Assembly: GCA_017417465.1 (NCBI GenBank)
Contig: JAFPZD010000019.1
Location: 1 to 64,000, forward strand
Length of the DNA stretch: 64,000 nucleotides
Direction: 5' to 3'
Source of the DNA: Prevotella sp.
GTDB taxonomy: Bacteria; Bacteroidota; Bacteroidia; Bacteroidales; Bacteroidaceae
This document shows positions 6,552-42,143 of this stretch, piece after piece; position 1 is the first letter of the stretch; each line of letters begins with the position of its first letter. Made by a program: the position numbers and the translations under genes. The notes under the pieces were generated by a model. That model was given only the letters and a program-made list of their open reading frames with translations. It was not told the DNA's origin and searched no databases.

Positions 6552-6680
6552 GACTTTTATGTTTAAATGAATGAAAATGCTTTTGCAAAGTTGGTCCACA
6601 TTGGTTCCCCTTGGGAGGAGTTGTGTGGGCGGCGTCCATTTCGCTGTTGGCAGCGGTGATGCCGCTGCATACGGAAGCGC

Positions 6681-26822: not shown

Positions 26823-26884
26823 CTGAGGGACAAGGAGATGGAGGGGCGGCGGTTTTCGCGGCGAGAAGACGGGGGAGTGAGGCG

Positions 26885-26950
26885 AAGAAGATACGGTTTT
26901 CTTGGGGAGAAGATACGGTTTTCTTGGGAAGAAGATACGGTATTGTTGGG
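26885..26950. repeat. Three 22-bp tandem units after the NUDIX gene
   Basis: Units 26885-26906, 26907-26928 and 26929-26950 share the core AGAAGATACGG(T/A)TTTCTTGG with one to three changes. The region 26823-27436 contains no convincing gene; it is GC-rich and almost wholly repeats. Confidence 0.9.
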
Positions 26951-27034
26951 AAGGGGTGCCGGGGGCGTGAGGAAGGGACGGCGGGGGTGTAAGGATTTTT
27001 TGGAGGTGAGGAGGGCGGAGAAATGCGGGGCGGG

Positions 27035-27056
27035 CCGCGTTAATAACGCGGCATAC
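27035..27056 (-). repeat. 17-nt palindromic hairpin repeat (copy a, stem CCGCGTT)
   Basis: CCGCGTT-AAT-AACGCGG followed by CATAC (GTATG on the other strand). One of five family members in the window (others at 31118, 35438, 37253, 41981). Confidence 0.85.
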
Positions 27057-27143
27057 GAGAGAAGGCCAGATAGATGGGGAGGCAAGGGGAGGGCAGGGGA
27101 GGAGAAGGGGATTGGCGGCGGGTGCCATTATTTGGTTGGCAGG

Positions 27144-27195
27144 CCGCCAATGTAGGGGCAGGCCCTGTGCCAGCCCGTTGGCCCGGCAGGGCCAG
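27144..27195 (+). repeat. 52-bp repeat, copy 1
   Basis: Contains TGTAGGGGCAGGCC and GCCAGCCCGTTGGCCC. It differs from copy 2 (27210-27261) at three positions. It is partly self-complementary and resembles the dispersed 'GTAGGGGC' palindromic repeats known in many bacterial genomes. Confidence 0.85.
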
Positions 27196-27209
27196 TTCTG
27201 CCTCAAATG

Positions 27210-27261
27210 CCGTCAATGTAGGGGCAGGCCTTGTGCCAGCCCGTTGGCCCGTCAGGGCCAG
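27210..27261 (+). repeat. 52-bp repeat, copy 2
   Basis: Direct copy of 27144-27195, with 14 bp between them. Confidence 0.85.
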
Positions 27262-27331
27262 TGTTCGCGAAAATGATTATTACGAAACGGCGATGCAAGG
27301 GCATGCGCGCGGTGTGCATTGCCGCGCACAG

Positions 27332-27382
27332 TGGCCCTGTCGGGCCATCGGGCTGGCACGGGGCCTGCCCCTACATTGGCGG
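27332..27382 (-). repeat. 52-bp repeat, copy 3 (inverted)
   Basis: Inverted relative to copies 1 and 2, so 27144-27382 can fold into a long stem. It is intergenic, just past the CPBP gene end. Confidence 0.85.
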
Positions 27383-27384
27383 CC

Positions 27385-27428
27385 GGCAGTGCGACCATTG
27401 GCGGGCGGCAGTGCGACCATTGGCGGGC
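27385..27428. repeat. Two exact 22-bp tandem units
   Basis: 27385-27406 and 27407-27428 are identical (core GCAGTGCGACCATTGGCGG). They run up to the stop codon of the CPBP protease gene. Confidence 0.9.
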
Positions 27429-27436
27429 GGTTGCCC

Positions 27437-28402
27437 CTACATTGCCGGCTTCATGCGGCGGTTGAGCTGGTAGATGGCCGGCAGAAGGAGGCAGAGCGAG
27501 AAGAGCACCGCCAGGAGCTGGTTGGTCATGGCGCCCCCGAGGATGTCCGAAAGGGTGGCGTCGGGGTCAGGATAGAGGTGGAAAAGGAGATAGGCGGCGG
27601 TGTTGTTGGCCCAATGATAGATGATTCCGGGGAGGATGCTGCCGGTGCGCATGTAGAGCCATCCGAGGAGGAGGCCAATCAGGAAGGCATGTGGCATCTG
27701 GGCGGGGTTAAGATGCGACAGGGCGAACAGCAGAGCTGAGATGACCAGCGCCCAGACGCGCCAGGAGGTGCTGCGGCGGGGGGAGAAGGAGGGTTGAGAG
27801 GGGGCGGCGGAAGAGGGGGCGGCGGTCGATGAGGGGGCGGGGCTGTCGCTGCCACTGGCCCTGTCGGGCCAACGGGCTGGCACGGGGCCTGCCCCTACAC
27901 TGGCGGGATTGGCCGCGGGTGAGGCGGCGGGCCTCCCGAGGAGCGTACGCAGGACGGTGCCGCGGAACACCATCTCCTCGACGACGGGCGCCATGAGGGC
28001 GATGATGAAATAGCCGCCGGGCGTGGTCATGATCAGGGCGAGCTCCTCGCTTGCCTGGTCGATGATCTGCTGAATCCACTGCGGCCATACGGGCTGGAGA
28101 TGCTCCTGAAGGAAGAGCGAGGGCGCGAGGGCGCCGAGGGCAGCAACGACACACCAGAAGACCACGTCCCAGGGCCGCGACCGCAGGTAGGCGGTGGTGG
28201 GCACGAACCACCTCAGGAGTATGAACAGCGCCAACGCCACCAGGTCGAAGAGGAGCATGGTGGCGATGGTGCCCTCTGCCGGCAGCTGCGTCTGGACACT
28301 GCCCTTCATGATGGTGAAGGTGACGGTGACGATGGCACCCGCAATGGCCTGTATGCCAAGGAAAATGAGTACGTAGGCGATGGCCTCAAAGATTCTTTTC
28401 AT
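27437..28402 (-). CDS. CPBP (CAAX-type) intramembrane metalloprotease with repeat-encoded insert
   Basis: 321 residues, polytopic membrane protein. The three CPBP/Abi motifs are present: EExxxR as VEEMVFRG (Glu142, Glu143, Arg147), FxxxH as FALSH (His230), and HWANN near 265, which together bind the catalytic metal. Between motif 1 and motif 2 lies an extra stretch of about 55 residues (about 158-213) rich in Ala, Pro and Ser. It includes VGAGPVPARWPDRASG, the translation of a copy of the 52-bp intergenic repeat. The last codons (..KPAM, stop) also fall in repeat-like DNA (CCCCTACATTGCC). Activity is plausible because all metal ligands are kept. The role is unknown; such proteases process prenylated proteins or act in immunity or membrane-protein turnover. 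Confidence 0.88.
   Translation of the reverse strand: MKRIFEAIAYVLIFLGIQAIAGAIVTVTFTIMKGSVQTQLPAEGTIATMLLFDLVALALFILLRWFVPTTAYLRSRPWDVVFWCVVAALGALAPSLFLQEHLQPVWPQWIQQIIDQASEELALIMTTPGGYFIIALMAPVVEEMVFRGTVLRTLLGRPAASPAANPASVGAGPVPARWPDRASGSDSPAPSSTAAPSSAAPSQPSFSPRRSTSWRVWALVISALLFALSHLNPAQMPHAFLIGLLLGWLYMRTGSILPGIIYHWANNTAAYLLFHLYPDPDATLSDILGGAMTNQLLAVLFSLCLLLPAIYQLNRRMKPAM
27855..27906 (-). repeat. 52-bp repeat, copy 4, translated in the CPBP protease
   Basis: Nearly identical to copies 1-3 but inside the coding region of the protease, in frame, between its first and second catalytic motifs. Confidence 0.9.
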
Positions 28403-28470
28403 AACTGTTTGCTTTGTTAATGGTGAGTGCTTGGTGATATGTGACGATGATGGTCGGAGGGTGAGTTGTG

Positions 28471-28567
28471 GCCGCTCGGGGCGGGGGAGTATGCCGCTCG
28501 TGGCGGGTTTGTAAGCCTCTCGTAGCGGTTTTGTTTGCCACTCGTAGCGGGTTTGTTTGCCACTCGG
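28471..28567. repeat. 22-bp tandem array (about 4.5 units)
   Basis: Units start at 28471, 28493, 28515, 28537 and 28559 (partial), core GCC(a/t/g)CTCGTAGCGGGTTTGTTT cut to shared bases. It lies upstream of the CPBP gene and abuts the REPIN-like element at 28566-28667. Confidence 0.88.
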
Positions 28568-28667
28568 AGACCTCCCCTAACCCCTCCTGTAGGAGGGGGA
28601 TAAGTTAGACCTTCTGCGGCAAAGGTAACCTATCCCCCTCCTACAGGAGGGGTTAGGGGAGGTCTCC
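28566..28667. repeat. REPIN-like element, perfect 37-bp inverted arms
   Basis: Arms 28566-28602 and 28631-28667 are exactly complementary, with a 28-nt spacer. Each arm is itself a small palindrome (CCCCTCCTGTAGGAGGGG). The right arm supplies the last codons and the stop of ribF. A second copy is at 60597-60700. Confidence 0.93.
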
Positions 28668-29696
28668 ACCATCCTTAGGTGACACATCTTCTTCCCCCAT
28701 CCTCCTCATCACCTCCTTCGTCTCCTCGGCATCGGTAACAAGCTGCCTCCTCATCACCTCCTTCGCCTCCTCGGCGTCTGCCTCAAGCTGCTGCCTCAGC
28801 GCCTCTACGCCATCGAAGTGCTGCTCATTGCGGAGGCGCTCATGGAACGCCACGGTGAGCTCCTGGCCATACAGGTCGGCGCTGAAGTCGAGGACGTAGA
28901 CCTCGAGGGTGAGGTTGTGGCTCCCGAATGTCGGCCGCGTGCCGATGTTCATGACGGCGGGGCGGTATTGGCGCTCACCGTCGCACACCATGCCGACCGA
29001 GACAGCGTAGACGCCGGGCCTGGGAATCAGCTTGCAGGGGTCGTCGGGCGCCAGGTTGGCAGTGGGAAAACCCAATGTCCGCCCGATGCCGTCGCCGTGG
29101 ACGACGCGGCCGGCCAGCGTGTAGGGCCGGCCGAGACAGCGTGCCGCCTGACGGACGCTGCCCTCGCCGAGCAGTCGCCTGACGCGCGAGCTGCTGACAG
29201 CCTCGCCATCGACGATGAGCGGCTCGGCGAGCAGCACGTCGAGGCCTATAGTTGCGCCGTAGCGCCGATAGTCGTCGTAGGGCCGCAGCCCGTCGTCGTG
29301 GGCCGTCCGGCATCCGAAGCGGTTGTCGTAGCCTGTGAGTAGCGTGCTGACGCTGAGGCGGTTGCGTAGTATGGAGCCCATGAACTCGTGGGCCGTCAGA
29401 CGGGCGAGCTCTACGGTGAAGGGCAGGATGACCAGCGTGTCGATGCCCGTCTCGTCGAGCAGCGCCTGGCGTTCGGCCAGCGTGGTGATGAGCTGTGGCT
29501 GCCATGCGGGCTGCAGGGTCTGTCGCGGATGACGGTCGAAGGTGACGACGAGCGTGCGCTGGCCGCGCACAGCGGCCGCGTCGGCGAGTTGCCGAAGCAG
29601 GTGTTGGTGGCCACGGTGCAGGCCGTCGAAGCAGCCGATGGTGGCGGCAAAGTGCCCGTCGAGATGCAGGTCGGGTGTGTAGACAATGGTATTCAT
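28653..29696 (-). CDS. ribF: Bifunctional riboflavin kinase / FAD synthetase
   Basis: Makes FMN from riboflavin and then FAD, in the cytoplasm. The N-terminal nucleotidyltransferase has the CFDGLHRGHQ motif (about residue 22) and SSSRVRRLL (about 170). The C-terminal flavokinase has GRTLGFPTANL (about 208) and PAVMNIGTRPTF. At 347 residues it is about 35 longer than usual. The excess is a C-terminal helix duplicated as two 15-residue units (28746-28790 and 28701-28745; QLEADAEEAKEVMRR and QLVTDAEETKEVMRR), followed by a tail ending GDLP whose last codons and TAA stop lie in the REPIN arm. The core enzyme is intact. Confidence 0.95.
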   Translation of the reverse strand: MNTIVYTPDLHLDGHFAATIGCFDGLHRGHQHLLRQLADAAAVRGQRTLVVTFDRHPRQTLQPAWQPQLITTLAERQALLDETGIDTLVILPFTVELARLTAHEFMGSILRNRLSVSTLLTGYDNRFGCRTAHDDGLRPYDDYRRYGATIGLDVLLAEPLIVDGEAVSSSRVRRLLGEGSVRQAARCLGRPYTLAGRVVHGDGIGRTLGFPTANLAPDDPCKLIPRPGVYAVSVGMVCDGERQYRPAVMNIGTRPTFGSHNLTLEVYVLDFSADLYGQELTVAFHERLRNEQHFDGVEALRQQLEADAEEAKEVMRRQLVTDAEETKEVMRRMGEEDVSPKDGGDLP

Positions 29697-29716
29697 GAGG
29701 TGTTGCGAGGTGGTTG

Positions 29717-32700
29717 TCAGTCGAGCTTCAGCTGCTTGTAGGCCACGCGCTGTCGGCGCCAGGTGTAGGTGGCATGCAGTGTGCCGTCGCTGCCCTGGAT
29801 GATGGCCGGGTAGGAATACTGACTGATGGGCGAGTCCTCCAGCGTGAGTGCGTGGTGCCAGGTGGCGCCGTCGTCGGTGCTGACGGCGATGCTGAGTGGC
29901 GTGCGCGGGCCTTTCGGCTCGCCGGGGAGGGTGGCTATGTCATTATAAATAAGTACATGCGTGCGCGCAGGATGGGCTGCCGACGGCGACCTGTTGATGG
30001 AGGTGACGGCGTCGGTACCCGAGTTGTTGTTGGGCAGGTCGGTGAGTTCCACGGTCGACCATGTGCGGCCGCGGTCGCTGCTATACGACTTTGCCAGCCG
30101 GCCGTTCTGGGTGCGCATGAGCACCATCAGGCGTCCGTCGCTCAACTCGAGGAACGAGGGTTGGATGCAGGCTATGGGAGCCAGCTTGTCAGGCTCCTTG
30201 GTGCGCGCGGCCTCCTGGGCATCGACGGGCCCTACGTACTGCCACTCGTGGGTGACCAGGTCGTAGCGCTCGACGTGGAACTTCCAGCCGCCCTTCTCGG
30301 TGGACGACCCACAGAGCAGCACGGGATGGCCGTCGGCATCGTTGGCGTCGGGGCTGAGCAGCAGGGGCTTGTTCTTGATGGGGCCGAGGAAACCCTCGGG
30401 CAGCGGCTCCTTCGGCGACCATGTGCGGCCGCCGTCGGTGGAACGGCATAGCCATCCCGTCCAGTCCTGCACGAAAGCCCCGATTTTGAAGAACAGCCAT
30501 AGCTCGCCGTCGGGCATCTGGAACAGCACGGGGTTGTAGCAGGCCTTGCGGCGCAGCAGCGACAGGTCGGCGACGAGCGACGAGGACCTGACGGGCCCCT
30601 TGTCGGCATGCGTGGTGGCCGTGTCGACGCCGGCGAGGAGTGCCTCGGGCGTGCCCGGCAGGAAGACGCCGTCGGCCGCCAGTACGGGCTCGCTCCAGGT
30701 GTCGCTGCCGCGTGCCTTCGTGCTGGTCCAGACGCAGACGTCGGGGCACCCCTCGTAGCTGCCTCCGAAGTAGGCACAGACGAGGTCGCCGTTCGTCGTC
30801 TCGGCAATGGTGGTGGCGTGGACTGAGGGGAAGTCGGTCTGGCTGTATACAAACTCGTCGCGGACGATGCGGGCATCGGCAGTGGGTATGTCGACGTCGA
30901 AGACGTGGTGGCCGGAGCCTACGGTGCGGACGTCGCCTGAAGGCAGGCAGACGTCGGCCGTTGTGTTACAGGGCACGTCGACCTCCCAGTGCAGGCGCTG
31001 CAGCGTCTTCTGCCAGCATGAGCCGAGGATGCCGTAGGGCGTGTCGAGCGAGGCGTCGACGTTGCTGCAATCCTGTATGTCGAAGGCGGGTGCCAGGCGG
31101 AAGTGGCTGGTGGTGGGGTGCGTTGGCAACGCACCATACACGCCAACGGGTGCCTGAGTGATGCCTGCGAGGTGCTGGAAGCACCACGTGAGCAGGTCGC
31201 CAAGCAGCATGACGTGGTTGCCGCTGTTCATACGCGGATTGGCAGTGTCGCCGTTCCAGAGCTCCCAGATGGTGGTTGCTCCCTGCTGGGCCATGTAGCC
31301 CCATGAGGGATAGGTGCGCTGGGTGGCGATGAGCCAAGCCACGTCGGCGTAGCCCATGTCGGTGAGTGTCTGCAACAGCCACGAGATGCCGATGACGCCA
31401 CATGGCACGTGGCCGCCATTCTTCTGGAGGATATTGGCCACGATGTTGTGGGCAATGGCCTGCCGAAGACTGTCGGGGGCGATGCCGAAGGCCAGGGGCA
31501 GCAGGTTGGCGGTGGCGGTGTTGTTGCCGTAGAACGTGCTGTCGGGATAGAGCGGATGGCCGGGGTGCGGCGAGGTGTTGGCGATGGTGAGGAAGCGGCG
31601 GTTGAAGGCTGTGGTCATGATCTCGCGGCGCTTCTGCCAGTACATGGCGTCATCGCTAAGCTGCTGTAGGCGAGCAAATTGCTCCATTAGCTGGAGTACA
31701 CGTATCATGTATGCGGAGGCGATGAGCGTACCATCGGTTTTGCGGGTGGGGTCCTGGCTGTGTATCAGTTCGGGACTCTCGGGGGGCACGCACCAGTCGC
31801 CGTATTTGTCGGCCGTGACAAGGTCGTCCGAGAGGTTCTCCTGCAGGTGATGCATCACCCAGCGCCGCAGTGCCGGGTAGCAGTCGATGATGGGCTGCTG
31901 GTTACCATACTGGCGGTAGAGCATGTCGCAGGCCAGGGGCAGTGCGGCAGGCCACGTCACATTGTCCGAGTAATAGTTCCAGAAGGCGGGTGCCACATCG
32001 GGGATGACACCGTCAGAGCGCTGGGCTTCGCAGATGTCACGCACCCATTTTGTGTACAGGCGTTCGTTGTCGAAGAGGTAGCTCTCGCCCAGCGAGCCGG
32101 CGGTGCGGTCGCCGAGCCAGGGCTGGCGCTCGTCGCGCTGCGGGCAGTCGACGGGCATGCCCTTGTAGTTGGAAGCGATGCCCCACCAGGCGTTCTGCAC
32201 CACACGGTTCAGGGTGGTGTCGCTGCAGGCGAAGTGACCCCGGTCGGCCATCTGGTCGCGAACCACCCAGGCCTGCACGTCGGTGGCGGGCCCGCTGACC
32301 TCGACATAACGGAAGCCGTGATAGACGAACGAGGGGTGCCACGCCTGGCTGTCGGTGCCGCTGCAGACGTAGACGTCGGTCGAGCGGGCGTGGCGCAGGT
32401 TGTCGGTGTAGAGCGTGCCGTCGGCGTTGAGGCGCTCGGCGTAGCGCACGCGGATGGTGTCGCCGGCGTGACCCGTTGGGCGGAAGGTGATCCAGCCGGA
32501 AAAGTTCTGGTGGAAGTCAATGATTTGGTGCTGCGCGGCGGCCGAGGGACTCAGGGTGGTGGGGGCCAAGCCCTGGTTGGTGGCGAGCCGCTCGGCGGTC
32601 ATCGTGGGCGTCATCTGGGGCCTGAGGGTGCCTTGCGGCAGGGCCGTGCGCTCGGCCTGCTGCCAGTGGCTGTCGTCGTAGGCTGGTGTGAGCCAGCCAG

Positions 32701-33604
32701 TTAGCTCTTTTCGTGCGTCGTACTCCTCACCGTCGTACTCATTGTTGGCGCGAATGGGGCCATCGGCCGTCACGCGCCATGAGTCGTCAGTGGCGATGGT
32801 CTGCGTGGTGCCGTCGATGTAGTCGATGACAAGGTTCAGGCGGCAGCAGGGCAGTCCGAAGTTCGTGTTCTTATAGGGCTTGTTCTGGCGCAGGGCAAAA
32901 TAGCGGCCGCCGCCCAGGACGATGCCGATGGTGGCCTGGGCGTCGGTGAGCAGGGCGGAGACGTCGTAGGTGTTGTAGAGGATGGTCTTGCGGTAGTCGG
33001 TGGGTGCAGGCTTCAGAACGTCGTTGGCACCAACCTCGCTGCCGTTCAGGAAGAGGCGGTAGTAGCCCAGGCCGGCGACGTAGACGGTGGCACGGCGCAC
33101 GGTCTTCGGCTGCAGGGGGGTGACCTTGCGCAGGTAGCGGGCGGCCAGGCGAGGCGTGGTGGTTCCGCCCTCCTCGCCGGGCTGCAGGCGGGTGAGGCCT
33201 ATCCACTGTCCGCGCCAGTGGCTCTCGCTGAGCAGTCCGATGCTGAACGTCTGGGGAGCGCTCCAGGCCGTGGTGCCGCGGTTGGTGGTGACGCGCAGGC
33301 GCCAGGTGCACTGCTGTCCGGCGCGTAGTGGCAAGCCAAGGTAGGGCACCCACAGCTGTTCGGCGCTGCTGACGACGCCTGAATCCCATACGGTCGCGCC
33401 GTCGCTCTCGACGTGTAGCTCGTAGGACGTCTGGACGACGTCGCGCTGGTCGGATTCGATGCGCCAGGAGAAGCGGGGCGCCGGGGTGTCGATGCCCAAG
33501 GGGGCATCAAGATTCTCGACGCGCAGATGGGTCACGGTGACGGTGGCCTGCGAAAGGGTGGCGGCCATGAACAGGAGGAGCAGGGGGAGGGTTCGCTTAA
33601 TCAT
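29717..33604 (-). CDS. GH78 alpha-L-rhamnosidase fused to a BNR/sialidase-like propeller
   Basis: About 1295 residues, secreted (MIKRTLPLLLLFMAATLSQA). The N-terminal half is a GH78 rhamnosidase: fibronectin-like start (LRVENLDAPLGIDTPAPRFSW), carbohydrate-binding region (LRRLFLNGSEVG-like), and the catalytic (alpha/alpha)6 barrel with DCPQRDERQPWLGDR and QQGATTIWELWNGD. From about residue 930 a BNR_2 propeller follows, with three Asp boxes (STDGGRTW, SSDRGRTW, STDDGATW), ending SYPAIIQGSDGTLHATYTWR. The second half could be a sialidase or a lyase/hydrolase on uronate-rhamnose linkages; the fusion suggests two linked cuts in a rhamnose-bearing glycan (inference). An upstream ATG at 33631 lies before the promoter element, so 33604 is chosen. 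A hairpin repeat (31118-31139) is translated inside it. Confidence 0.88.
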   Translation of the reverse strand: MIKRTLPLLLLFMAATLSQATVTVTHLRVENLDAPLGIDTPAPRFSWRIESDQRDVVQTSYELHVESDGATVWDSGVVSSAEQLWVPYLGLPLRAGQQCTWRLRVTTNRGTTAWSAPQTFSIGLLSESHWRGQWIGLTRLQPGEEGGTTTPRLAARYLRKVTPLQPKTVRRATVYVAGLGYYRLFLNGSEVGANDVLKPAPTDYRKTILYNTYDVSALLTDAQATIGIVLGGGRYFALRQNKPYKNTNFGLPCCRLNLVIDYIDGTTQTIATDDSWRVTADGPIRANNEYDGEEYDARKELTGWLTPAYDDSHWQQAERTALPQGTLRPQMTPTMTAERLATNQGLAPTTLSPSAAAQHQIIDFHQNFSGWITFRPTGHAGDTIRVRYAERLNADGTLYTDNLRHARSTDVYVCSGTDSQAWHPSFVYHGFRYVEVSGPATDVQAWVVRDQMADRGHFACSDTTLNRVVQNAWWGIASNYKGMPVDCPQRDERQPWLGDRTAGSLGESYLFDNERLYTKWVRDICEAQRSDGVIPDVAPAFWNYYSDNVTWPAALPLACDMLYRQYGNQQPIIDCYPALRRWVMHHLQENLSDDLVTADKYGDWCVPPESPELIHSQDPTRKTDGTLIASAYMIRVLQLMEQFARLQQLSDDAMYWQKRREIMTTAFNRRFLTIANTSPHPGHPLYPDSTFYGNNTATANLLPLAFGIAPDSLRQAIAHNIVANILQKNGGHVPCGVIGISWLLQTLTDMGYADVAWLIATQRTYPSWGYMAQQGATTIWELWNGDTANPRMNSGNHVMLLGDLLTWCFQHLAGITQAPVGVYGALPTHPTTSHFRLAPAFDIQDCSNVDASLDTPYGILGSCWQKTLQRLHWEVDVPCNTTADVCLPSGDVRTVGSGHHVFDVDIPTADARIVRDEFVYSQTDFPSVHATTIAETTNGDLVCAYFGGSYEGCPDVCVWTSTKARGSDTWSEPVLAADGVFLPGTPEALLAGVDTATTHADKGPVRSSSLVADLSLLRRKACYNPVLFQMPDGELWLFFKIGAFVQDWTGWLCRSTDGGRTWSPKEPLPEGFLGPIKNKPLLLSPDANDADGHPVLLCGSSTEKGGWKFHVERYDLVTHEWQYVGPVDAQEAARTKEPDKLAPIACIQPSFLELSDGRLMVLMRTQNGRLAKSYSSDRGRTWSTVELTDLPNNNSGTDAVTSINRSPSAAHPARTHVLIYNDIATLPGEPKGPRTPLSIAVSTDDGATWHHALTLEDSPISQYSYPAIIQGSDGTLHATYTWRRQRVAYKQLKLD
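31118..31139 (-). repeat. 17-nt hairpin repeat (copy b, stem GTGCGTT), translated
   Basis: GTGCGTT-GGC-AACGCAC followed by CATAC. On the coding strand it encodes VYGALPTH in the late part of the GH78 module. Confidence 0.88.
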
Positions 33605-33608
33605 GGTG

Positions 33609-33616
33609 CAAAGGTA
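33609..33616 (-). promoter_or_regulatory. Promoter (-7 TACCTTTG) 4 nt before the rhamnosidase start codon
   Basis: TACCTTTG on the minus strand with TTTG about 20 nt upstream matches the Bacteroidetes consensus. Only four bases (CACC) separate it from ATG 33604, so the mRNA may be leaderless or nearly so, unless translation starts further in. Confidence 0.7.
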
Positions 33617-33767
33617 CGAAGAAAAGCCCAAAACGCCAAATTTTTCAGCCGTTTTTCTAATGGCGGCAACGGCGGGGTGGGGCAGTGGCCGAGTGCTTCT
33701 GGCGGTGGTTCTCAGTACTTTTAACCCGTTTTAACGCCGATTCCCCCGTTATCTGCCGGAAATTTTG

Positions 33768-33775
33768 TAACTTTG
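33768..33775 (+). promoter_or_regulatory. Promoter (-7 TAACTTTG) of gpmI
   Basis: TTTTGTAACTTTGCAGCCC fits TAnnTTTG and lies 41 bp before ATG 33817. The -33 element is unclear. Confidence 0.7.
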
Positions 33776-33816
33776 CAGCCCGTAACGAATGACAAACAAA
33801 ACATAACAGAAAAACA

Positions 33817-35340: not shown

Positions 35341-35343
35341 CGC

Positions 35344-35382
35344 GGGAGCGGGGGCCGCAGCGTTAGCGCGGCCCCCGCTCCC
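35344..35382 (+). terminator. 15-bp perfect GC stem after gpmI
   Basis: Arms 35344-35358 and 35368-35382 (GGGAGCGGGGGCCGC and its complement) surround a 9-nt loop, four bases after the stop codon. There is no U-tract, so it may stabilise the mRNA end or need Rho. Confidence 0.7.
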
Positions 35383-35437
35383 GTCCCCCTGGCGGCTCGG
35401 TCCCGTCCCTCTCGCGGCTCGGTCTTCCTTCCGTCCT

Positions 35438-35459
35438 GTATGCCGCGTTGTTAACGCGG
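35438..35459 (+). repeat. 17-nt hairpin repeat (copy c, stem CCGCGTT)
   Basis: GTATG followed by CCGCGTT-GTT-AACGCGG, intergenic, 46 bp upstream of the ATPase start. A TTG inside it opens the longest reading frame but is not a credible start. Confidence 0.88.
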
Positions 35460-35504
35460 CCCCGCCTCCCTCCCCCCGCGGCCCCGCCTCTTTCCTCCCT
35501 TCCC

Positions 35505-38273
35505 ATGTCGGCTATTCACCCTTCCCCCTCCCCCTCCGGTCTGTCCCCTCAGCAAGTTGCAGACAGCCGCCTCCTCCACGGCGAGAACATCCTGACGCCC
35601 CCCAGGCGCCGCTCTCTTTGGCATCTCTACGCCGAGAAGTATGCCGACCCCATCATCCGCATCCTCATCGTCGCCGCCCTCATCTCGCTGGGCCTGGCCT
35701 TCATCAGCGGTCAGTACGTCGAGACCATCGGCATCATCGCCGCCATCTTCTTCGCCACCACCGTCGGCTTCTACTTCGAGCGCGATGCCACTCGCAAGTT
35801 CGACGTACTGACAGCCCTCGGCGAGGAGCTGCCCGTAAAAGTCCGACGCGACGGTCGCGTGCAGCAGATTGCCCGCCGTGAGGTCGTCGTCGGCGACATC
35901 GTCCTCATCGAGACGGGCGACGAGATCCCCGCCGACGGCCGCCTGCTGAAGGCCACCGACCTTCAGGTCGACGAGTCATCGCTCACCGGCGAGCCCGTCG
36001 CCACCAAGTCCGCCACTCCCTCCGCCTCTGCCTCCTCTCCCTCCGCCGCCCCCGACGCTCAGTTAACCTCCGACTCCCATGCCTATCCCCCCGATGTCGT
36101 CCTCCGCTCCTCCATGGTGATGAGTGGCACGGCCACCTTCGTCGTCACCGCTGTCGGCGACCAGACCGAGATAGGCCAGGTGGCGCGCGAGGCCACTGAG
36201 CTATCCGCCATCAAGACGCCCCTCAACCAGCAGCTCGACCGCCTGGCGAAGCTCATCAGCAAGGTTGGGTCGGCGGTGTCGGTATTGGCCTTCGTCAGCT
36301 TCCTCGTCCACGATATCCTCACCGGCAGCATCTGGCACACCGACGACTATGTCGGCATGGCCACCATCGTGCTGCGCTACTTCATGATGGCCGTGACGCT
36401 GATTGTCATGGCCGTCCCCGAGGGGCTGCCCATGGCCATCACCCTGGCCATGGCACTGAACATGCGGCGCATGCTGAAGACAAACATCCTCGTCCGTAAA
36501 CTGGCATCCACGGAGACCATGGGCGCGGTCACGGTCATCTGCACCGACATGACGGGAACGCTCACCCAGAACCGCATGACCGTCGGCGAGCTCTACGTCA
36601 CCCCCGATGCCGACAACCGCCTCATCGACTACGCCATCGCCGTGAACAGCACCGCCGAAGTCACCGACGGCAACGGCATAGGCAACCCCACGGAGGTGGC
36701 ACTGCTGCGACATCTCCAGACCGACTACCGCGCGCTGCGCGCAGAGGCTACGGTGCTCTCGCAGACGCCTTTCTCGACCGAGCGCAAGTATATGCAGACC
36801 ACCGCCCGTCTGGCCGACGGCGCCACCCATACCTTCGTCAAGGGTGCCCCGGAGATTGTCCTCGACGGCTGCCAATGGAACCACCCCGAGGAGTATGCAC
36901 TTGTCACTAAGAAGCTCGCCACTTGGCAGCGCCAGGCCATGCGTACCCTGGCCTTCACCTGCGATGGCCGCTTCCTGGCCGTCACCGGCATCAGCGACCC
37001 TGTCCGCGAGGATGTCCCAAAGGCCGTGAACAAATGCCGCTCTGCAGGCATCGAGGTAAAGATTGTCACTGGCGACACCCAGGCAACGGCCATGGAAATC
37101 GCCCGCCAAATCGGCATCCTCACCCCCGAGGCGTCCGCTCCAGCCCCCTCCGCGGCCCCTTCTTCCGCCCCCGCCGCGTCCGCTCTCACCCCCGCCGCGT
37201 CCGCTCCCGCCCCTGCCTCTCCCTCCTCCGCCTCCTGTCTATCTTCTGTCCCGTATGGCGCGTTGTCAACGCGCTCCTCCCTCTCCTCCCTCTCTGGCGC
37301 CGCCTTCAGCGCCCTCTCCGACGAGGAGGCCCTCCAGCGCCTCCCCGCCCTGAAAGTCCTCTTCCGCGCCCGTCCCGCCGACAAGCAGCGCCTCGTCCAG
37401 CTGCTGCAACGCCAGGGCCAGGTGGTCGCCGTCACTGGCGACGGCACCAACGACGCCCCGGCCCTGAACCACGCCCACATCGGCATCTCGCTCGGCTCGG
37501 GTACGAGCGTCGCCAAGCACGCCAGCGACGTCACCATCCTCGACGACTCCTTCCGCTCAGTCGTAAAGGCTGTGGAGTGGGGGCGTGCCATCTACCGTAA
37601 CATCCAGCGCTTCCTCTTCTTCCAGCTGACGGTGAATGTCACCGCCCTTCTGCTGGTGCTCGGTGGCTCTCTCATCGGAACGGAACTGCCTCTGACGGTG
37701 ACGCAGATCCTCTGGATAAACCTTATTATGGACACTTTCGCCGCCATGGCACTGGCCTCACTGCCATCGTCGTCCGACGTCATGGGACAGCCGCCGCGGC
37801 AGCCCGGCAGCCCCATCATCACCCGTCCGCTTTGGCGTGCCATCATCGTCACCGGCCTCGCCTTCTTCGCTGTCTCCTTCGTCTATCTCTACTGGCTGGA
37901 GCACAACGCCGTAGGCACAGGCGTCAGCACTTACGAGCTGACGAAGTTCTTCACCGTCTTCGTGATGATGCAATGGTGGAACCTGTTCAATGCCCGCGCC
38001 CTCCTGACTAACGCCCGACGACCTGCCGCCACTGGCAGCGCCCAGCGGCCGAACCGCCGCTACAGCCCCCTCAGATGGTTGCTGAAAGCATTGCCGAAGG
38101 GTTTTGTCTTTGTCACCACCATCATCCTCGTTGGTCAGTGGGCCATCGTGCAGTGGGGCGGCACCATGTTCCGCACTGTGCCACTCTCGCTCAACGACTG
38201 GCTGCAGATCATCGCCGCCACCTCGGTGGTCTTCATCGTCCCCATGCTGGGCCGACGGCTCTTCGCCCGCTAA
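35505..38273 (+). CDS. Calcium-type P-type ATPase with DMTGT in place of DKTGT
   Basis: 922 residues, inner-membrane cation pump of the PMCA/SERCA-like bacterial group (PEGLPMAITLAMA in TM4, typical of Ca2+ pumps). Present motifs: LTGEP (about 160), KGAPEI, TGDTQATA (about 522), GDGTNDAPAL (about 645) and a six-helix C-terminal membrane block. The phosphorylation loop reads ICTDMTGTLTQN: Asp348 is kept but the nearly invariant Lys is Met (ATG 36549-36551, one base from AAG). Two Ala/Ser/Pro-rich inserts occur: about residues 165-195 and about 538-613. The second contains a translated hairpin repeat (VPYGALSTR). Start 35505 gives MSAIHPSPSPSGLSPQQV; the longer frame begins in a repeat. Confidence 0.92.
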   Translation: MSAIHPSPSPSGLSPQQVADSRLLHGENILTPPRRRSLWHLYAEKYADPIIRILIVAALISLGLAFISGQYVETIGIIAAIFFATTVGFYFERDATRKFDVLTALGEELPVKVRRDGRVQQIARREVVVGDIVLIETGDEIPADGRLLKATDLQVDESSLTGEPVATKSATPSASASSPSAAPDAQLTSDSHAYPPDVVLRSSMVMSGTATFVVTAVGDQTEIGQVAREATELSAIKTPLNQQLDRLAKLISKVGSAVSVLAFVSFLVHDILTGSIWHTDDYVGMATIVLRYFMMAVTLIVMAVPEGLPMAITLAMALNMRRMLKTNILVRKLASTETMGAVTVICTDMTGTLTQNRMTVGELYVTPDADNRLIDYAIAVNSTAEVTDGNGIGNPTEVALLRHLQTDYRALRAEATVLSQTPFSTERKYMQTTARLADGATHTFVKGAPEIVLDGCQWNHPEEYALVTKKLATWQRQAMRTLAFTCDGRFLAVTGISDPVREDVPKAVNKCRSAGIEVKIVTGDTQATAMEIARQIGILTPEASAPAPSAAPSSAPAASALTPAASAPAPASPSSASCLSSVPYGALSTRSSLSSLSGAAFSALSDEEALQRLPALKVLFRARPADKQRLVQLLQRQGQVVAVTGDGTNDAPALNHAHIGISLGSGTSVAKHASDVTILDDSFRSVVKAVEWGRAIYRNIQRFLFFQLTVNVTALLLVLGGSLIGTELPLTVTQILWINLIMDTFAAMALASLPSSSDVMGQPPRQPGSPIITRPLWRAIIVTGLAFFAVSFVYLYWLEHNAVGTGVSTYELTKFFTVFVMMQWWNLFNARALLTNARRPAATGSAQRPNRRYSPLRWLLKALPKGFVFVTTIILVGQWAIVQWGGTMFRTVPLSLNDWLQIIAATSVVFIVPMLGRRLFAR
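37253..37274 (+). repeat. 17-nt hairpin repeat (copy d, stem GCGCGTT), translated
   Basis: GTATG then GCGCGTT-GTC-AACGCGC, inside the Ala/Ser/Pro-rich insert of the ATPase cytoplasmic domain; encodes part of VPYGALSTR. Confidence 0.88.
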
Positions 38274-38349
38274 GTTTTGGGCGTAGGGCTGCATCTTTTC
38301 GCGCAGGCACTCACCATCAGCCTATTTCCCTTCCACCATATAAAACACG

Positions 38350-38388
38350 AAAAAGGCCTTCCTCGTCGGGTAGACGGAAGACCTTTTT
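38350..38388. terminator. Bidirectional terminator between the ATPase and anti-sigma genes
   Basis: AAAAAGGCCTTCC (38350-38362) pairs with GGAAGACCTTTTT (38376-38388) with one mismatch. A-runs and T-runs on the outer ends make it a classical two-way intrinsic terminator for the convergent genes. Confidence 0.88.
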
Positions 38389-38496
38389 ACTGGCTTTGGT
38401 ACTTAATCAAGACTTCACAGTCTCTTTCGTGTGTTTTAATTCTTTAATGATTTTAATATAGAGAAAGCATAGAAATATAGTCGATTCGGCTGTCAC

Positions 38497-38991
38497 CTAA
38501 GGCCGCAGCCCCAGGGTGTCCATGAGAAGGGTGTCGGCACGCTGGCCCACCTCGTAGGCCATGGCCGGGTCGCTGCTGATCTCCACATACTCGGCATAGC
38601 TGTCGGCGGGTCCCTCCATGGGGGGCTCTGCCTGCTGGAATGCCTGGTTGATGGCGCCAGCAAACGTGACGATGATGGCCACCACGGCGGCGGCACGGAA
38701 CAACGGACGCAGGCGCTCGCGCAGCTTCACCGTCTTCGCCTTCACAACGGGCGCACCCTCGATGGCTCGGAGCATGCGCGCGTCGAAGTCGTCAGGCAGC
38801 GTGGAGCCGTCGTCAGTGGCCTTCTCACCCAGAAGGGTGAACAGCGTCGCATAACGGCTCAGCGACTGGGGCATCGTCTCCACGCTCTGCGCGAAGAAGG
38901 CCTTCAGTATCTGCTCCTCCTGCAACGTCGTTTCGGCGGCGAAGTAGCGCTCCAAGAGCTGCTCAATGTACCTATAGTCCATATTGTTCAT
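38497..38991 (-). CDS. Small single-pass membrane protein, probable anti-sigma partner
   Basis: 164 residues: a cytoplasmic helical N-terminal part (YIEQLLERYFAAETTLQEEQ), one membrane helix at about 98-118 (LFRAAAVVAIIVTFAG), and a periplasmic tail. The start overlaps the sigma factor gene by 20 bp, the usual arrangement for an ECF sigma factor and its membrane-bound antagonist in Bacteroidales. No FecR domain or zinc motif is visible, so the anti-sigma role rests on position and topology. Confidence 0.7.
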   Translation of the reverse strand: MNNMDYRYIEQLLERYFAAETTLQEEQILKAFFAQSVETMPQSLSRYATLFTLLGEKATDDGSTLPDDFDARMLRAIEGAPVVKAKTVKLRERLRPLFRAAAVVAIIVTFAGAINQAFQQAEPPMEGPADSYAEYVEISSDPAMAYEVGQRADTLLMDTLGLRP

Positions 38992-39493
38992 CTTGTATAA
39001 ATCTTTGTTTAATGGCCTGTCTGGCCCGGAAGATGTTGACCTTCACCTGCGCTTCGGGGATGTCCATGATGGCGGCAATCTCACGGTAGGAGTGGCCCTC
39101 AATGTCACGCAGCTGCACACAGGTGCGCTGTTTTTCGGGAAGCTCATTGATCAGTGCTTTCACCAACCTCAGCTGGTCGTGGCGGACGGCCTGCATCTCA
39201 GGGGTGTCAGCAACTGTCGGGTGAACGTCCAAGGCGGCATGCTCATCGTCGAGCGAGGCGTGCTGGAAGTCCTTGCGACGCTGGTGGTCGAGCGCCAGGT
39301 TGCGGCAGATGGTCAGGCAGAATGCCTCGATGGACTCAATCTCATCCCACTGCTCACGGCGGTTCCACACCCGGATCATGGTTTCTTGTACGATGTCTTC
39401 GGCCTCCGCATGGCTAAGAGTGATGCGGAGCGCCAGTCTGAAGAGCTCATTCTTCAGCGGTAAGACTTCTGTACGGAAACGCTGTTCTTTCAT
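38972..39493 (-). CDS. ECF-type RNA polymerase sigma factor
   Basis: 173 residues. Sigma region 2 (about 10-75) contains ELFRLALRITLSHAEAEDIVQET and IRVWNRREQW. Region 4 (about 115-165) contains LINELPEKQRTCVQLRDIEG and EIAAIMDIPEAQVKVNIFRAR, an intact helix-turn-helix. Starts at ATG 39493. It is transcribed with the membrane partner and presumably held inactive until an envelope signal arrives. Targets are unknown; the nearby B12 operon has its own riboswitch and a housekeeping-type promoter. Confidence 0.95.
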   Translation of the reverse strand: MKEQRFRTEVLPLKNELFRLALRITLSHAEAEDIVQETMIRVWNRREQWDEIESIEAFCLTICRNLALDHQRRKDFQHASLDDEHAALDVHPTVADTPEMQAVRHDQLRLVKALINELPEKQRTCVQLRDIEGHSYREIAAIMDIPEAQVKVNIFRARQAIKQRFIQDEQYGL

Positions 39494-39556
39494 CCTCTCT
39501 GTATTGGTTGACGGTTAGTAAGCCGAAAAGTTACAAGGAAAACGGGGTTTTCTGCA

Positions 39557-39564
39557 CAAAAGTA
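39557..39564 (-). promoter_or_regulatory. Candidate promoter (-7 TACTTTTG) of the sigma/anti-sigma operon
   Basis: Fits TAnnTTTG on the minus strand and would leave a leader of about 60 nt before ATG 39493. Confidence 0.55.
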
Positions 39565-39635
39565 CAGTTTTTGGCTTATTTCTCCCTGTATTTAACAGCT
39601 TTTAACGACGCCGGTCATCTTTTACGGGATCGCCG

Positions 39636-39666
39636 TTTCGTAATTCCAAAAACTTTCGTACCTTTG
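39636..39666 (+). promoter_or_regulatory. Promoter of the cobalamin riboswitch operon
   Basis: TTTC (39636-39639), 19-nt spacer, TACCTTTG (39659-39666). The stretch from 39640 to 39668 is 27/29 identical to 46151-46179 before the TPR/AraC regulator gene. Confidence 0.75.
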
Positions 39667-39669
39667 CAC

Positions 39670-39855
39670 GCGAATCGTGGTTCGACGACCGATTAAAATG
39701 AGAATGGGGTGCGAAGCCCCAGCTGTCCCGCAGCTGTAGGTCGCTTTCACGGAGCAAGCATCCGGCGTGCTGTCTGCCGCCGGCGGTCACTGAGATTCTT
39801 GGGAAGACCGCTTGCCTTTCCGGGCGACGAGCCAGAAGACCTGCCACGACGAACG
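39670..39855 (+). ncRNA. Cobalamin (B12) riboswitch
   Basis: All main landmarks of the class are visible: GAATGGGGTGCGAAGCCCC and the AGCTGTCCCGCAGCTGTAGG hairpin (about 39700-39750), GTCACTG (39786-39792) followed by GGGAAG (39801-39806), and the B12 box AGCCAGAAGACCTGCC (39830-39845). A closing P1 stem pairs about 39671-39680 with 39844-39853. It begins a few bases after the promoter and ends about 75 nt before btuG. A good Shine-Dalgarno (AGGAGG, 39912-39917), rare in this group, suggests control of translation start: with B12 bound, uptake gene expression should fall. Confidence 0.93.
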
Positions 39856-39927
39856 TTCCGACCGCGCCTCTGGGGTTAGGCGGGTGGAACTACACCTTAT
39901 TATTATATAATAGGAGGTAAAGAAGAG

Positions 39928-41070
39928 ATGAGAAAGCTTGGACGATGGTTCCTGCTGACACTGCTCCTGGCGGCTGCCTGCCGCACGGACGATGACATCG
40001 TACAGCCGACAACCGACGACCTGGGACACCAGACGGCGACGGCCGTGGCCGGCATGTACGTGCTCTGCGAGGGCAATATGGGCTCGAACAAAGCCACGCT
40101 CGACTATCTGGACCTCAACGGCGACACGGCTCGCTACTGGAAGAACATCTTCCCGTCGCGCAATCCGCAGCAGGTGATGATGCTGGGCGACGTCGGCAAC
40201 GACTGCAAAATCTACGGCTCGCGCCTGTGGCTTGTCATCAACTGTTCGAACAAGGTTGAGGTCTGCACCGCCGACTCGGCATTCTCGCTGGGACATGTCG
40301 ACGTGCCCAACTGCCGCTTTCTGGCGTTCGACGGCGGCAATGCCTACGTCAGCAGCTACGTGGGGCCTGTCAATGGCAACTCGGTGATGGGCAGTGTCTA
40401 CCGCATCGACACGCTGACGCTGCGCGTCACGGGCCAGGTCTCCGTGGGTTACCAGCCGGAGGAGATGGCCATCGTTGACGGCAAGCTCTACGTGGCGAAC
40501 AGCGGCGGCTACGAGGTCATTCAGGGGCGCGACTACGACCGCACGGTGTCGGTCGTCGACCTTCAGACGTTCCGTGAGGAGCGCCGCATCGACGTGGCGC
40601 CCAACCTCTTCCGACTGCGTGCCGACCGTCATGGCCAGCTGTGGGTATCTTCTCGCGGCGACTACGGCGGCAGCACCTCGCGCCTCTACCGGCTCAGGAA
40701 GAATGCACAGGGCATCATGGAGAAAGCCGACTCGGTCGACGTGGCCGTCAGCGACATGGCCTTCCGCGGCGACTCCCTGTGCTTTATGGGCACTACCTAC
40801 GACGAGCGCTGGCGACAGACGCACTGCTTCGGCGTCATCAGCACCTCCACCGGGCGCCTGCTCTCGACACAGCTGGTGAAGGACCCGTCGCCCATTGAGA
40901 CGGCCTACGGATTGATGATTCACCCCCTGACGGGCGACATCTACGTCATGGACGCTACGAACTACGTCTCCAGCGGGCGCCTCTTCTGCTTCGATGCCGA
41001 AGGGAACCTGAAGTGGAAGACGTTGACGGGCGACATTCCCGGACATGCCTGTTGGAGGTTTGAACATTAA
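39928..41070 (+). CDS. btuG: BtuG-like surface B12-binding beta-propeller lipoprotein
   Basis: 380 residues, lipoprotein (LLAAACRTDDD, Cys18). A seven-bladed YncE/DUF5074-type propeller is indicated by the opening block MYVLCEGNMGSNKATLDYLD, then QQVMMLGDVGN, LWLVINCSNKVEV and VGYQPEEMAIVDGKLYVANSG. This is the pattern of BtuG, the Bacteroides surface protein that binds vitamin B12 with very high affinity and passes it to BtuB. Placement directly after a cobalamin riboswitch and upstream of BtuH- and BtuB-like genes supports the role strongly. Start ATG 39928 has an AGGAGG ribosome site 10 nt upstream. Confidence 0.85.
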   Translation: MRKLGRWFLLTLLLAAACRTDDDIVQPTTDDLGHQTATAVAGMYVLCEGNMGSNKATLDYLDLNGDTARYWKNIFPSRNPQQVMMLGDVGNDCKIYGSRLWLVINCSNKVEVCTADSAFSLGHVDVPNCRFLAFDGGNAYVSSYVGPVNGNSVMGSVYRIDTLTLRVTGQVSVGYQPEEMAIVDGKLYVANSGGYEVIQGRDYDRTVSVVDLQTFREERRIDVAPNLFRLRADRHGQLWVSSRGDYGGSTSRLYRLRKNAQGIMEKADSVDVAVSDMAFRGDSLCFMGTTYDERWRQTHCFGVISTSTGRLLSTQLVKDPSPIETAYGLMIHPLTGDIYVMDATNYVSSGRLFCFDAEGNLKWKTLTGDIPGHACWRFEH

Positions 41071-41081
41071 ACATTGAAAAT

Positions 41082-42143
41082 ATGAAGTTAAGGCTGCTGA
41101 ACAGTTTACTATTGCTGGTTTCTACATCGCTCTTTAGCCCCGTGGGCGCGCAGACGAAGTACATCGCTGCCGTCGACGAGTACGTGCCGGCACCCGGACA
41201 GTTTGTCAATACCATGCCCGAGACAACGGCCGACGATACGCCGGAGACCGTGGCACAGAAGTGTACCGAGTGTCTGGCCAACGGCGCCGGCGTGCTGGTG
41301 ACCCTCGGGGCCTGGGGCGGCTACCTGACGTTCCACTTCGACCACCCCGTGGCCAACGTGCCGGGCCAGATGGACTTTTACATCGCCGGCAACGCCAACA
41401 TCAACGGCAGCGAGGCGGGCATCGTCATGGTCAGTCAGGACGTCAATGGCAACCACCTGCCCGACGACCCTTGGTACGAGCTGGCTGGTTCGGCCGACCA
41501 GGACAGCATCGACAAGGTGGACTACGGTTATGTGCTGACCTACACCCGCCAGGGCGACCTGACCGACGTGCCCTGGACCGACACGCTGGGCGGCAGTGGC
41601 AAGGTGCCCCGCAACGGCTTCCACAACCAGGAGTACTTCCCCCTGTGGCTCGGCGACGAGCTGACCTTCAGCGGCACGCGGTTGCCTACCAATGCCCGTA
41701 ACACCAGTGCCAGCGGACAAAACTGGCTGCTGTCGGCCCTGCGCTACGGCTATGTGGACAACCGGCCCAACGCCGACAGCCTCAGCAGTAGTTTCAATCT
41801 CGACTGGGCCGTCGACCCGCTCACGCGCCAGCCCGTCGTCCTCACACACGCCGACTTCTTTCGTGTCTACACGGCCCTGAACCAAGTGTGCGGATGGATA
41901 GGTGAGACATCGACGGAAGTCAGCGGCGCCGAAGACCTGCACCTCGAAGCCTCTCTGGCGTATGCAGCCGGCATTGTCCCGTATGTTGCGTTGCCAACGC
42001 AACACACCGAACATCTCTACGACTTTCAGGGCCGCCGTGTGTCCAACATTCCCGGCACCCAGTCCCCCCACTCCCTGTCGCCCAAGACGCCACGCTCCCC
42101 AGGTCTTTACATCCTAAACGGCAAGAAATACATCTATAAATAG
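41082..42143 (+). CDS. Secreted surface protein of the B12 uptake operon
   Basis: 353 residues, signal peptide (MKLRLLNSLLLLVSTSLFSPVGAQ), no lipobox. A beta-sandwich-like body with VTLGAWGGYLTFHFDHPV and FYIAGNANINGSEAGIVMVSQD resembles the 'cell surface protein' that often accompanies BtuG/BtuH in Bacteroidales B12 loci; its exact role is unknown. It lies 11 bp after btuG and 21 bp before btuH. It ends with the C-terminal tag HLYDFQGRRVS...GLYILNGKKYIYK, split by a Ser/Pro-rich piece. A hairpin repeat (41981-42002) is translated just before the tag as ...PYVALPTQH. Confidence 0.75.
   Translation: MKLRLLNSLLLLVSTSLFSPVGAQTKYIAAVDEYVPAPGQFVNTMPETTADDTPETVAQKCTECLANGAGVLVTLGAWGGYLTFHFDHPVANVPGQMDFYIAGNANINGSEAGIVMVSQDVNGNHLPDDPWYELAGSADQDSIDKVDYGYVLTYTRQGDLTDVPWTDTLGGSGKVPRNGFHNQEYFPLWLGDELTFSGTRLPTNARNTSASGQNWLLSALRYGYVDNRPNADSLSSSFNLDWAVDPLTRQPVVLTHADFFRVYTALNQVCGWIGETSTEVSGAEDLHLEASLAYAAGIVPYVALPTQHTEHLYDFQGRRVSNIPGTQSPHSLSPKTPRSPGLYILNGKKYIYK
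41981..42002 (+). repeat. 17-nt hairpin repeat (copy e, stem TTGCGTT), translated
   Basis: GTATG then TTGCGTT-GCC-AACGCAA, in the linker between the body and the C-terminal tag of the surface protein. Confidence 0.88.

Follow-up and report, generated by a model that had tools for sequence, protein, structure and literature searches.

Repetitive extragenic palindromic (REP) sequences are associated with REP-associated tyrosine transposases (RAYTs, also termed TnpA-REP). According to Quentin et al. 2018 (PMC6006769), class 2 TnpA-REP proteins carry the signature Y-x3-NP, and the genes of subclass 2.4, which by Table 1 of that work corresponds to Bertels group 4 and counts Bacteroidetes among its hosts, contain REPs in frame within the gene; double-foot REPs have also been reported. 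More than 100 copies are often quoted for REPs (PMC2817692). Here, we analyze a window of 64,000 nucleotides (64 kb) from Prevotella sp. (assembly GCA_017417465.1, contig JAFPZD010000019.1), for which a preliminary description had reported five copies of a GTATG-flanked hairpin, three of them inside genes. We conclude, with a probability of about 0.8, that these hairpins are REP elements, i.e., short non-autonomous repeats that spread with a divergent Prevotella RAYT/TnpA-REP transposase. The existence of the repeat family and a general linkage between transposase and hairpin are well supported; movement of the elements is inferred.

The GTAT hairpin family

The pattern GTATGNNGCGTTNNNAACGC matches the window five times, at 27037-27056 (-), 31120-31139 (-), 35438-35457 (+), 37253-37272 (+) and 41981-42000 (+), and not once in 100 dinucleotide shuffles. 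All five hairpins are exactly as originally described, with the addition that two lie on the minus strand, and their outer stem pairs (CC/GG, GT/AC, CC/GG, GC/GC and TT/AA) vary and are complementary in every case. When each hairpin is counted once per strand, the window holds 16 readings of perfect hairpins with a 7-bp stem and a 3-nt loop; GTATG precedes five of them, and every other 5-mer precedes at most one. Copy 1 (27035-27056, minus strand; GTATG CCGCGTT ATT AACGCGG) is intergenic, and the five bases upstream read CTCTC, not GTYC. Copy 3 (35433-35460 including the upstream GTCCT, plus strand; GTATG CCGCGTT GTT AACGCGG) is located between two genes, just 5' of a P-type ATPase gene, the listed TTG start of which (35448) falls within the hairpin; the true start probably lies elsewhere. 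The other three are in frame within genes, namely copy 2 (31118-31139, minus strand; GTATG GTGCGTT GCC AACGCAC), copy 4 (37248-37275 including the upstream GTCCC, plus strand; GTATG GCGCGTT GTC AACGCGC) and copy 5, a long form (41976-42012, plus strand; GTCCC GTATG TTGCGTT GCC AACGCAA CACAC CGAAC). A degenerate sixth copy with six of seven pairs (6651-6672, minus strand; GTATG CAGCGGC ATC ACCGCTG) directly follows a TAA.

The genome to which the window belongs (G000; 4.42 Mb, 278 contigs, 90.8% complete) contains 24 exact copies (14 on the forward and 10 on the reverse strand), compared with none for the reversed-pattern control, so that the copy number is far above chance. Five of the 24 are found within these 64 kb, a local cluster for which the window was chosen. 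A model of the hairpin yielded 53 hits in the same genome, readings from both strands counted. Among 100 genomes, the exact form is present in four, the own genome included, with 24 strand matches in G000, 33 in G036, three in G028 and one in G041; palindromic copies score on both strands in these counts. The wider pattern GTYCNGTATGYYGCGNTNNNANCGCRR matches at least 111 stretches of Bacteroidales metagenome-assembled genomes (MAGs). Among the 111 matches listed, the taxa are Prevotella, Prevotellaceae, Bacteroidaceae, Muribaculaceae, Bacteroidales or Bacteroidetes, and the animals named are all ruminants (goat, sheep, several deer, yak and water buffalo). The same pattern also matches 75 viral-contig stretches. 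Two viral GTAT hairpins (L278:6945-6971 and L249:9532-9558) directly adjoin genes for a head maturation protease and a terminase; of ten open reading frames (ORFs) scanned on viral contigs, two matched head maturation protease/terminase, two matched PHROGs of unknown function and six had no match.

The repeat unit can be written as GTYC-N-GTAT followed by 8 bp, 3 nt and 8 bp, the core from GTAT to the end of the stem measuring 23 nt. The pairs of the 7-bp stem claimed at the outset do exist; the stem is in fact one of 8 bp, as the G of GTATG stands opposite a C in 211 of 215 copies. Constancy of the core and of the GTATG flank, likewise claimed, holds for the five window copies and fails elsewhere in G000, where the core pair GCGxT/AxCGC is variable (GCGTT, GCGAT, GCGGT; other MAGs also have GCGCT), as is the third base of GTATG. 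GTYC-N immediately precedes GTATG in 20 of the 24 exact G000 copies, which were found by a search without upstream requirement; it is likewise present in a set of 276 copies, the percentages from which are biased because most loci were fetched via a GTYC-requiring pattern. In the latter set there is no conservation upstream of GTYC. On the 3' side, a CANAC continuation completes a mismatched 37-nt palindrome in 32 of 215 and 52 of 276 copies. Tandem arrays consist of 31-bp units (L135, eight matches), 31- and 45-bp units (L185) or 63-bp units (L160); that in L135 spans positions 4841-5084, and the array of hairpin units at L185:3-788 lies within a RAYT-like ORF without interrupting its frame.

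Pairing in the stem is maintained while the bases change. The pair that is free on both sides is T-A in 70, A-T in 127, G-C in 12 and C-G in two of 215 distinct contexts, with four other combinations; Watson-Crick pairs therefore amount to 211, whereas 2000 shuffles gave 102 on average and never more than 126. Of 53 exact-core copies from loci L001-L107, 51 keep Watson-Crick pairing at the two outer positions (shuffled mean 22, maximum 32); a T.G wobble and a C-C mismatch account for the remaining two. In a set of 80 sequences, paired cells reach 99.2%, as against 88.4% after shuffling and 21-59% when slid, and the covariation score exceeds that of every shuffle. Neither many non-complementary outer pairs nor a chance-level copy number, the two outcomes named beforehand as contradicting the proposal, was encountered. 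The covariation had originally been read as a sign of selection acting on the folded form or of copying through it, and this view is supported. Since the copies share descent, paired variants are not independent events. The data are compatible both with a functional structure under selection and with the simple copying of variants that were already paired.

RAYT-like genes and their hairpins

ORFs of one family, 336-381 aa in length, are present in ten hairpin-bearing loci. Ten aligned proteins share an HUH motif of the type PDHLH (variants DHLH/DHFH) and a YLxDNP-type motif (Y-x3-NP), with H101, H103, Y186, N190 and P191 invariant, and extend for about 140 residues C-terminal to the core. Alignment by hhalign with four 2.4-like RAYTs gave 97.9% at an E-value of 3.8e-13 over columns 23-208. 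The NCBIfam model REP_Tyr_transpos (NF047646) matched the two proteins tested with E-values of 5.5e-9 and 2.6e-8 (36 and 34 bits, cut-off 80). Judged by sequence, the family appears to be a divergent RAYT/TnpA-REP homologue, i.e., a putative HUH/tyrosine transposase. The Pfam domain Y1_Tnp (PF01797) proved unsuitable as a marker for the partner, as it occurs in 35 of 60 genomes of the genus, yet not in G036, which is the richest in exact hairpins. The Y1_Tnp model misses the RAYT-like family, and the RAYT of G036 (L041:888-1952, minus strand) was found by protein query; it bears the same stem as the 33 exact strand matches of its genome, both in the linker and upstream.

The linker between the HUH and tyrosine halves holds an in-frame hairpin (stem of 7 bp or more, 3-nt loop) in 28 of 37 genes, compared with nine of 1438 equal windows from other parts of these genes. 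Ten RAYT loci were sampled for their hairpin; the 26 genes drawn by protein similarity, 20 of which have the linker hairpin, are a less biased set, in which 20 loci come from the protein search or from regions hand-chosen from its table, partly for long linkers. The threshold was fixed after a first look. Duplicates were removed, as were loci without the required motifs, and the genes examined cover only part of the matches from the protein search. The stems in the linkers vary among genes (TTGCGTT, TTGCGAC, TTGCTGT, CTGCGAC, GCTGCGGC and GCTGAGGC), and a second hairpin is frequent near the end of the RAYT gene, some 600 bp on, or just upstream. As a dispersed family, GTAG-GCTGCGGC is weak: seven of its ten places, in four of 60 genomes, are RAYT linkers of G014 and G059.

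Across 60 genomes, RAYT matches were obtained in 33 and hairpin model hits in 27; both were present in 22, RAYT only in 11, hairpin only in five and neither in 22 (p 2.4e-4). The corresponding numbers for the 32 better genomes are 10, 5, 3 and 14 (p 0.01). Because at most 125 candidates were scored per genome in the hairpin model search, the hairpin counts per genome are lower bounds. With RAYT identities of at least 63%, a cut chosen after seeing the table, hairpins occur in 12 of 12 genomes. Carriers of TTGCTGT in the RAYT, as judged from the fetched RAYT loci only, have copies of this stem elsewhere in nine of nine genomes, compared with any copy in ten of the 51 others (p 6e-6). The search for a RAYT-type transposase gene, suggested in the preliminary description, revealed such genes together with hairpins inside or next to them, in G000 as well, where three homologues were found. 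The first (on contig C270; 63% identity) carries TTGCTGT both in its linker and at its C-terminal end, and there are seven further TTGCTGT places elsewhere in the genome. The second (C26) has GCTGCGAC and CCGCGAC in its linker, and the third (C23) lacks a 7-bp hairpin with a 3-nt loop. GCGAC stems were rejected as a dispersed partner of the C26 protein, as they occupy two places in G000, one within the RAYT gene itself, and the pattern is found in 11 of 60 genomes. A 171-aa IS200-like ORF on contig C91 (L061) was likewise discarded as a partner, as a scan of its 3.3-kb locus detected no hairpin.

An alternative is that the hairpins derive from a mobile element with a different transposase, an insertion sequence (IS) or miniature inverted-repeat transposable element (MITE), either as its ends or as minimal forms of it, and that RAYT genes are merely frequent targets. 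Copies in many unrelated genes and viral contigs would be compatible with such an origin, as would the failure to find a matching RAYT in G000; however, diverged RAYTs share a hairpin at the same linker, albeit with differing stems, such hairpins are rare elsewhere in those genes, and the TTGCTGT stem in the RAYT tracks the TTGCTGT stem in the genome. We consider this explanation improbable. If the hairpins are REPs of the RAYT-like family, the transposase would be expected to recognize the folded single strand, cut beside the tag and place copies of the hairpin elsewhere, and by analogy GTAT may assume the role held by GTAG in known REPs. The distinct stems in distinct RAYT genes (TTGCGTT, TTGCGAC, TTGCTGT, GCTGCGGC) would then represent distinct cognate pairs. 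The repeat family described here is widespread among gut bacteria of the Prevotella type and tied to a testable transposase, and such natural transposase-hairpin pairs with differing stems constitute a data set on the recognition of REPs by TnpA-REP.

Besides the GTAT hairpins, G000 contains GTAG-tagged repeats of a second, REP-like family, GTAGGGGCAGGC-NNN-GTGCCAGCC, arranged as inverted pairs, with 61 places in this genome, two in G034 and none in the other 58 genomes. Its places in the window are 27152-27175 (+), 27218-27241 (+), 27351-27374 (-) and 27875-27898 (-); 22-nt units form short arrays at 26850-26959 and 28449-28558, adjoining this repeat-rich part of the window near 27 kb. On contig C15, a 182-aa RAYT with NHVH, WQ and YINNNP is surrounded by eight places of the family. 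This protein was excluded as a partner of the GTAT hairpins since it goes with the GTAG-tagged family, and it matches the description of TnpA-REP subclass 2.4 in PMC6006769.

Hairpins within protein-coding genes

The three window copies said to be translated in frame were confirmed by their peptides. Copy 2 encodes GVYGALPTHP in a gene for an alpha-L-rhamnosidase (GH78) fused to a BNR-repeat domain (29717-33631, minus strand); it corresponds to residues of about 831-838, and since Pfam domains end at 820 and start at 838, it is at the border of two domains, a placement made from domain borders only. Copy 4 contributes VPYGALSTR to the calcium-type P-type ATPase (TIGR01517; 35448-38273, plus strand), in a region 39-52 residues longer than in the homologues, a segment that is absent from 19 homologues and of which the hairpin is a small part. 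Copy 5 is read as VPYVALPTQHT in a secreted or surface protein without Pfam or NCBIfam match (41082-42143, plus strand), homologues of which are encoded in 17 of 60 genomes, own included; here the copy resides in a linker 5' of the region for the C-terminal tail, without net change in length. All three are located where the proteins vary. A cobalamin riboswitch (RF00174, 80.5 bits, 39661-39862, plus strand) is positioned upstream of the operon of the surface protein.

The occurrence of copies in genes proved to be general. In the MAG loci L108-L218, 38 of 124 copies with enough flank are coding by a codon-usage score and 86 are not; among the 38, four are in RAYT genes and three are doubtful because of a stop in the printed stretch. 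They fall into two forward frames (21 and 11), none into the third, and six are on the opposite strand. The 35 distinct copies of G000 (from 42 loci) include eight that pass the score and five added by inspection, 13 altogether, and 22 not placed in genes. The added five are that in the ATPase and four in signal-peptide-like N-termini (L018, L082, L085 and L087; by eye), which read CSVCC(V/G)I(N/T)A. Copies of the CC/GG type (15, and one CT/GG neighbor) are outside genes in 16 of 16 cases and those of other types inside in 13 of 19 (p 2e-5, for a split made post hoc). Copies with a GCGGT core were also seen by eye in signal-peptide-like N-termini as SVCCG(I/L)TA, in L082, L085 and L087 of G000 and in L122 and L156 of other MAGs.

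These numbers bear on two further explanations. The hairpins might be RNA elements (terminators, attenuators or stabilizers of mRNA) conserved for roles in the transcript, for which the preserved pairing and the 22 of 35 G000 copies unplaced in genes could be cited. The coding copies (13 of 35 and 38 of 124) argue in the other direction, a conserved GTATG-side tag outside the stem and hairpins in RAYT linkers would be unexpected, and an Rfam scan of the window returned no family at the copies, with the cobalamin riboswitch as the sole match; we judge this possibility to be unlikely. Less probable still is selection on the encoded peptide (SVCCxxIAT or VPYVALPTQQT) rather than on the DNA. Two of six frames account for 32 of the 38 coding copies, and the four N-terminal G000 copies resemble each other; on the other hand, the majority of copies is non-coding by score (86 of 124; 22 of 35) with the pairing preserved there, and copies occur in three reading frames and on both strands. 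With the hairpins taken as REPs, in-frame landings in loops, linkers or signal-peptide-like ends would have been tolerated and kept. This would be a selfish DNA for which coding sequences are a frequent location, with the consequence that peptides recurring in annotated proteins, such as SVCCxxIAT and VPYVALPTQQT, represent inserted repeats rather than conserved motifs. One may go further and propose, tentatively and with more doubt than confidence, that the transposase gene permanently contains its own recognition hairpin as translated sequence between the catalytic halves, keeping transposase and REP linked and co-evolving, while the same hairpins serve as in-frame linkers or signal-peptide ends in many Prevotella proteins and also ride in phage genomes.

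Several points weigh against the hairpins being REPs of the RAYT-like family. None of the three RAYT homologues found in G000, a genome that is 90.8% complete, carries the GCGTT stem that would mark the partner of the 24 exact copies, which is the main gap of this report. Among the 60 genomes, five have hairpins and no RAYT match at an E-value of 1e-10, and nine of 37 RAYT linkers lack a hairpin. Because model hits in or beside RAYT genes were counted, the genome-level association is in part a consequence of the counting itself; the association statistics ignore kinship among the genomes, and the 63% identity cut is post hoc. On the protein side, the NF047646 scores of the two proteins tested are below the cut-off of the model, Pfam Y1_Tnp is marginal (E-values 0.055-0.19), and a profile search of solved structures with a RAYT-like protein gave no match up to an E-value of 1. 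Two of five covariation measures (double-change pairs and pair types) do not exceed the shuffles in the set of 80 sequences. The surface-protein copy adds zero net length relative to homologues, and the comparison of two genes, ATPase and surface protein, brought out neither a clean empty site with precise junctions nor a target duplication nor evidence of movement.

Comparison with described REP systems

The Prevotella hairpins are short multi-copy palindromes (23-nt core, 37-nt long form; 24 strand matches in G000 and 33 in G036), as REPs are, at a copy number lower than the figure often quoted. Association with a RAYT is found in general and not for the exact GCGTT stem within G000, and the proteins combine the HUH motif with the Y-x3-NP signature of class 2 TnpA-REP. 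The stem foot bears GTAT and not one of the tags GTAG, GT[AG]G or CGTC. As in subclass 2.4 (PMC6006769), the hairpin is in frame between the HUH and Y halves of the gene (28 of 37 genes here), and the Prevotella RAYT is similar by profile to four 2.4-like proteins. In contrast to subclass 2.4, the tag is GTAT instead of GT[AG]G, the HUH motif DHLH/DHFH instead of NH[IFV]H and the tyrosine motif YLxDNP instead of YIxNNP, and the proteins comprise 336-381 aa with about 140 residues after the core, whereas a median of 194 aa and no extension are given for subclass 2.4.

The Group 3 REPtron of Stenotrophomonas maltophilia (PMC8266576) likewise has a 23-nt REP composed of a four-base tag, a perfect 8-bp stem and a 3-nt loop. 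Its tag is GTAG and its RAYT belongs to a different group; moreover, cutting at CT has been demonstrated there, whereas the Prevotella family is described from its sequence. The dinucleotide cut in a known REPtron pairs with part of the tag (PMC8266576); if the Prevotella system followed this scheme, a GTAT tag would predict AT or AA where CT or CA is cut otherwise. The GTAG/CGTC-tagged REP families of Di Nocera et al. 2013 (PMC3733652) are tagged palindromes of 20-40 bp, some of them in genes, as here; neither tag is GTAT, and Prevotella is absent from that text. Rickettsia palindromic elements (PMC3733652) resemble the Prevotella hairpins in lifestyle only, being palindromes translated in frame in unrelated proteins. 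No publication on the Prevotella GTAT family was found in the open-access literature, a scope outside of which most subscription journals fall. As REPs inside tnpA-REP genes have already been published, the most striking feature of the Prevotella system is known in kind, and the system represents a new variety; new here are GTAT in place of GTAG, the DHLH motif, the C-terminal extension and the many in-frame copies in ordinary genes.

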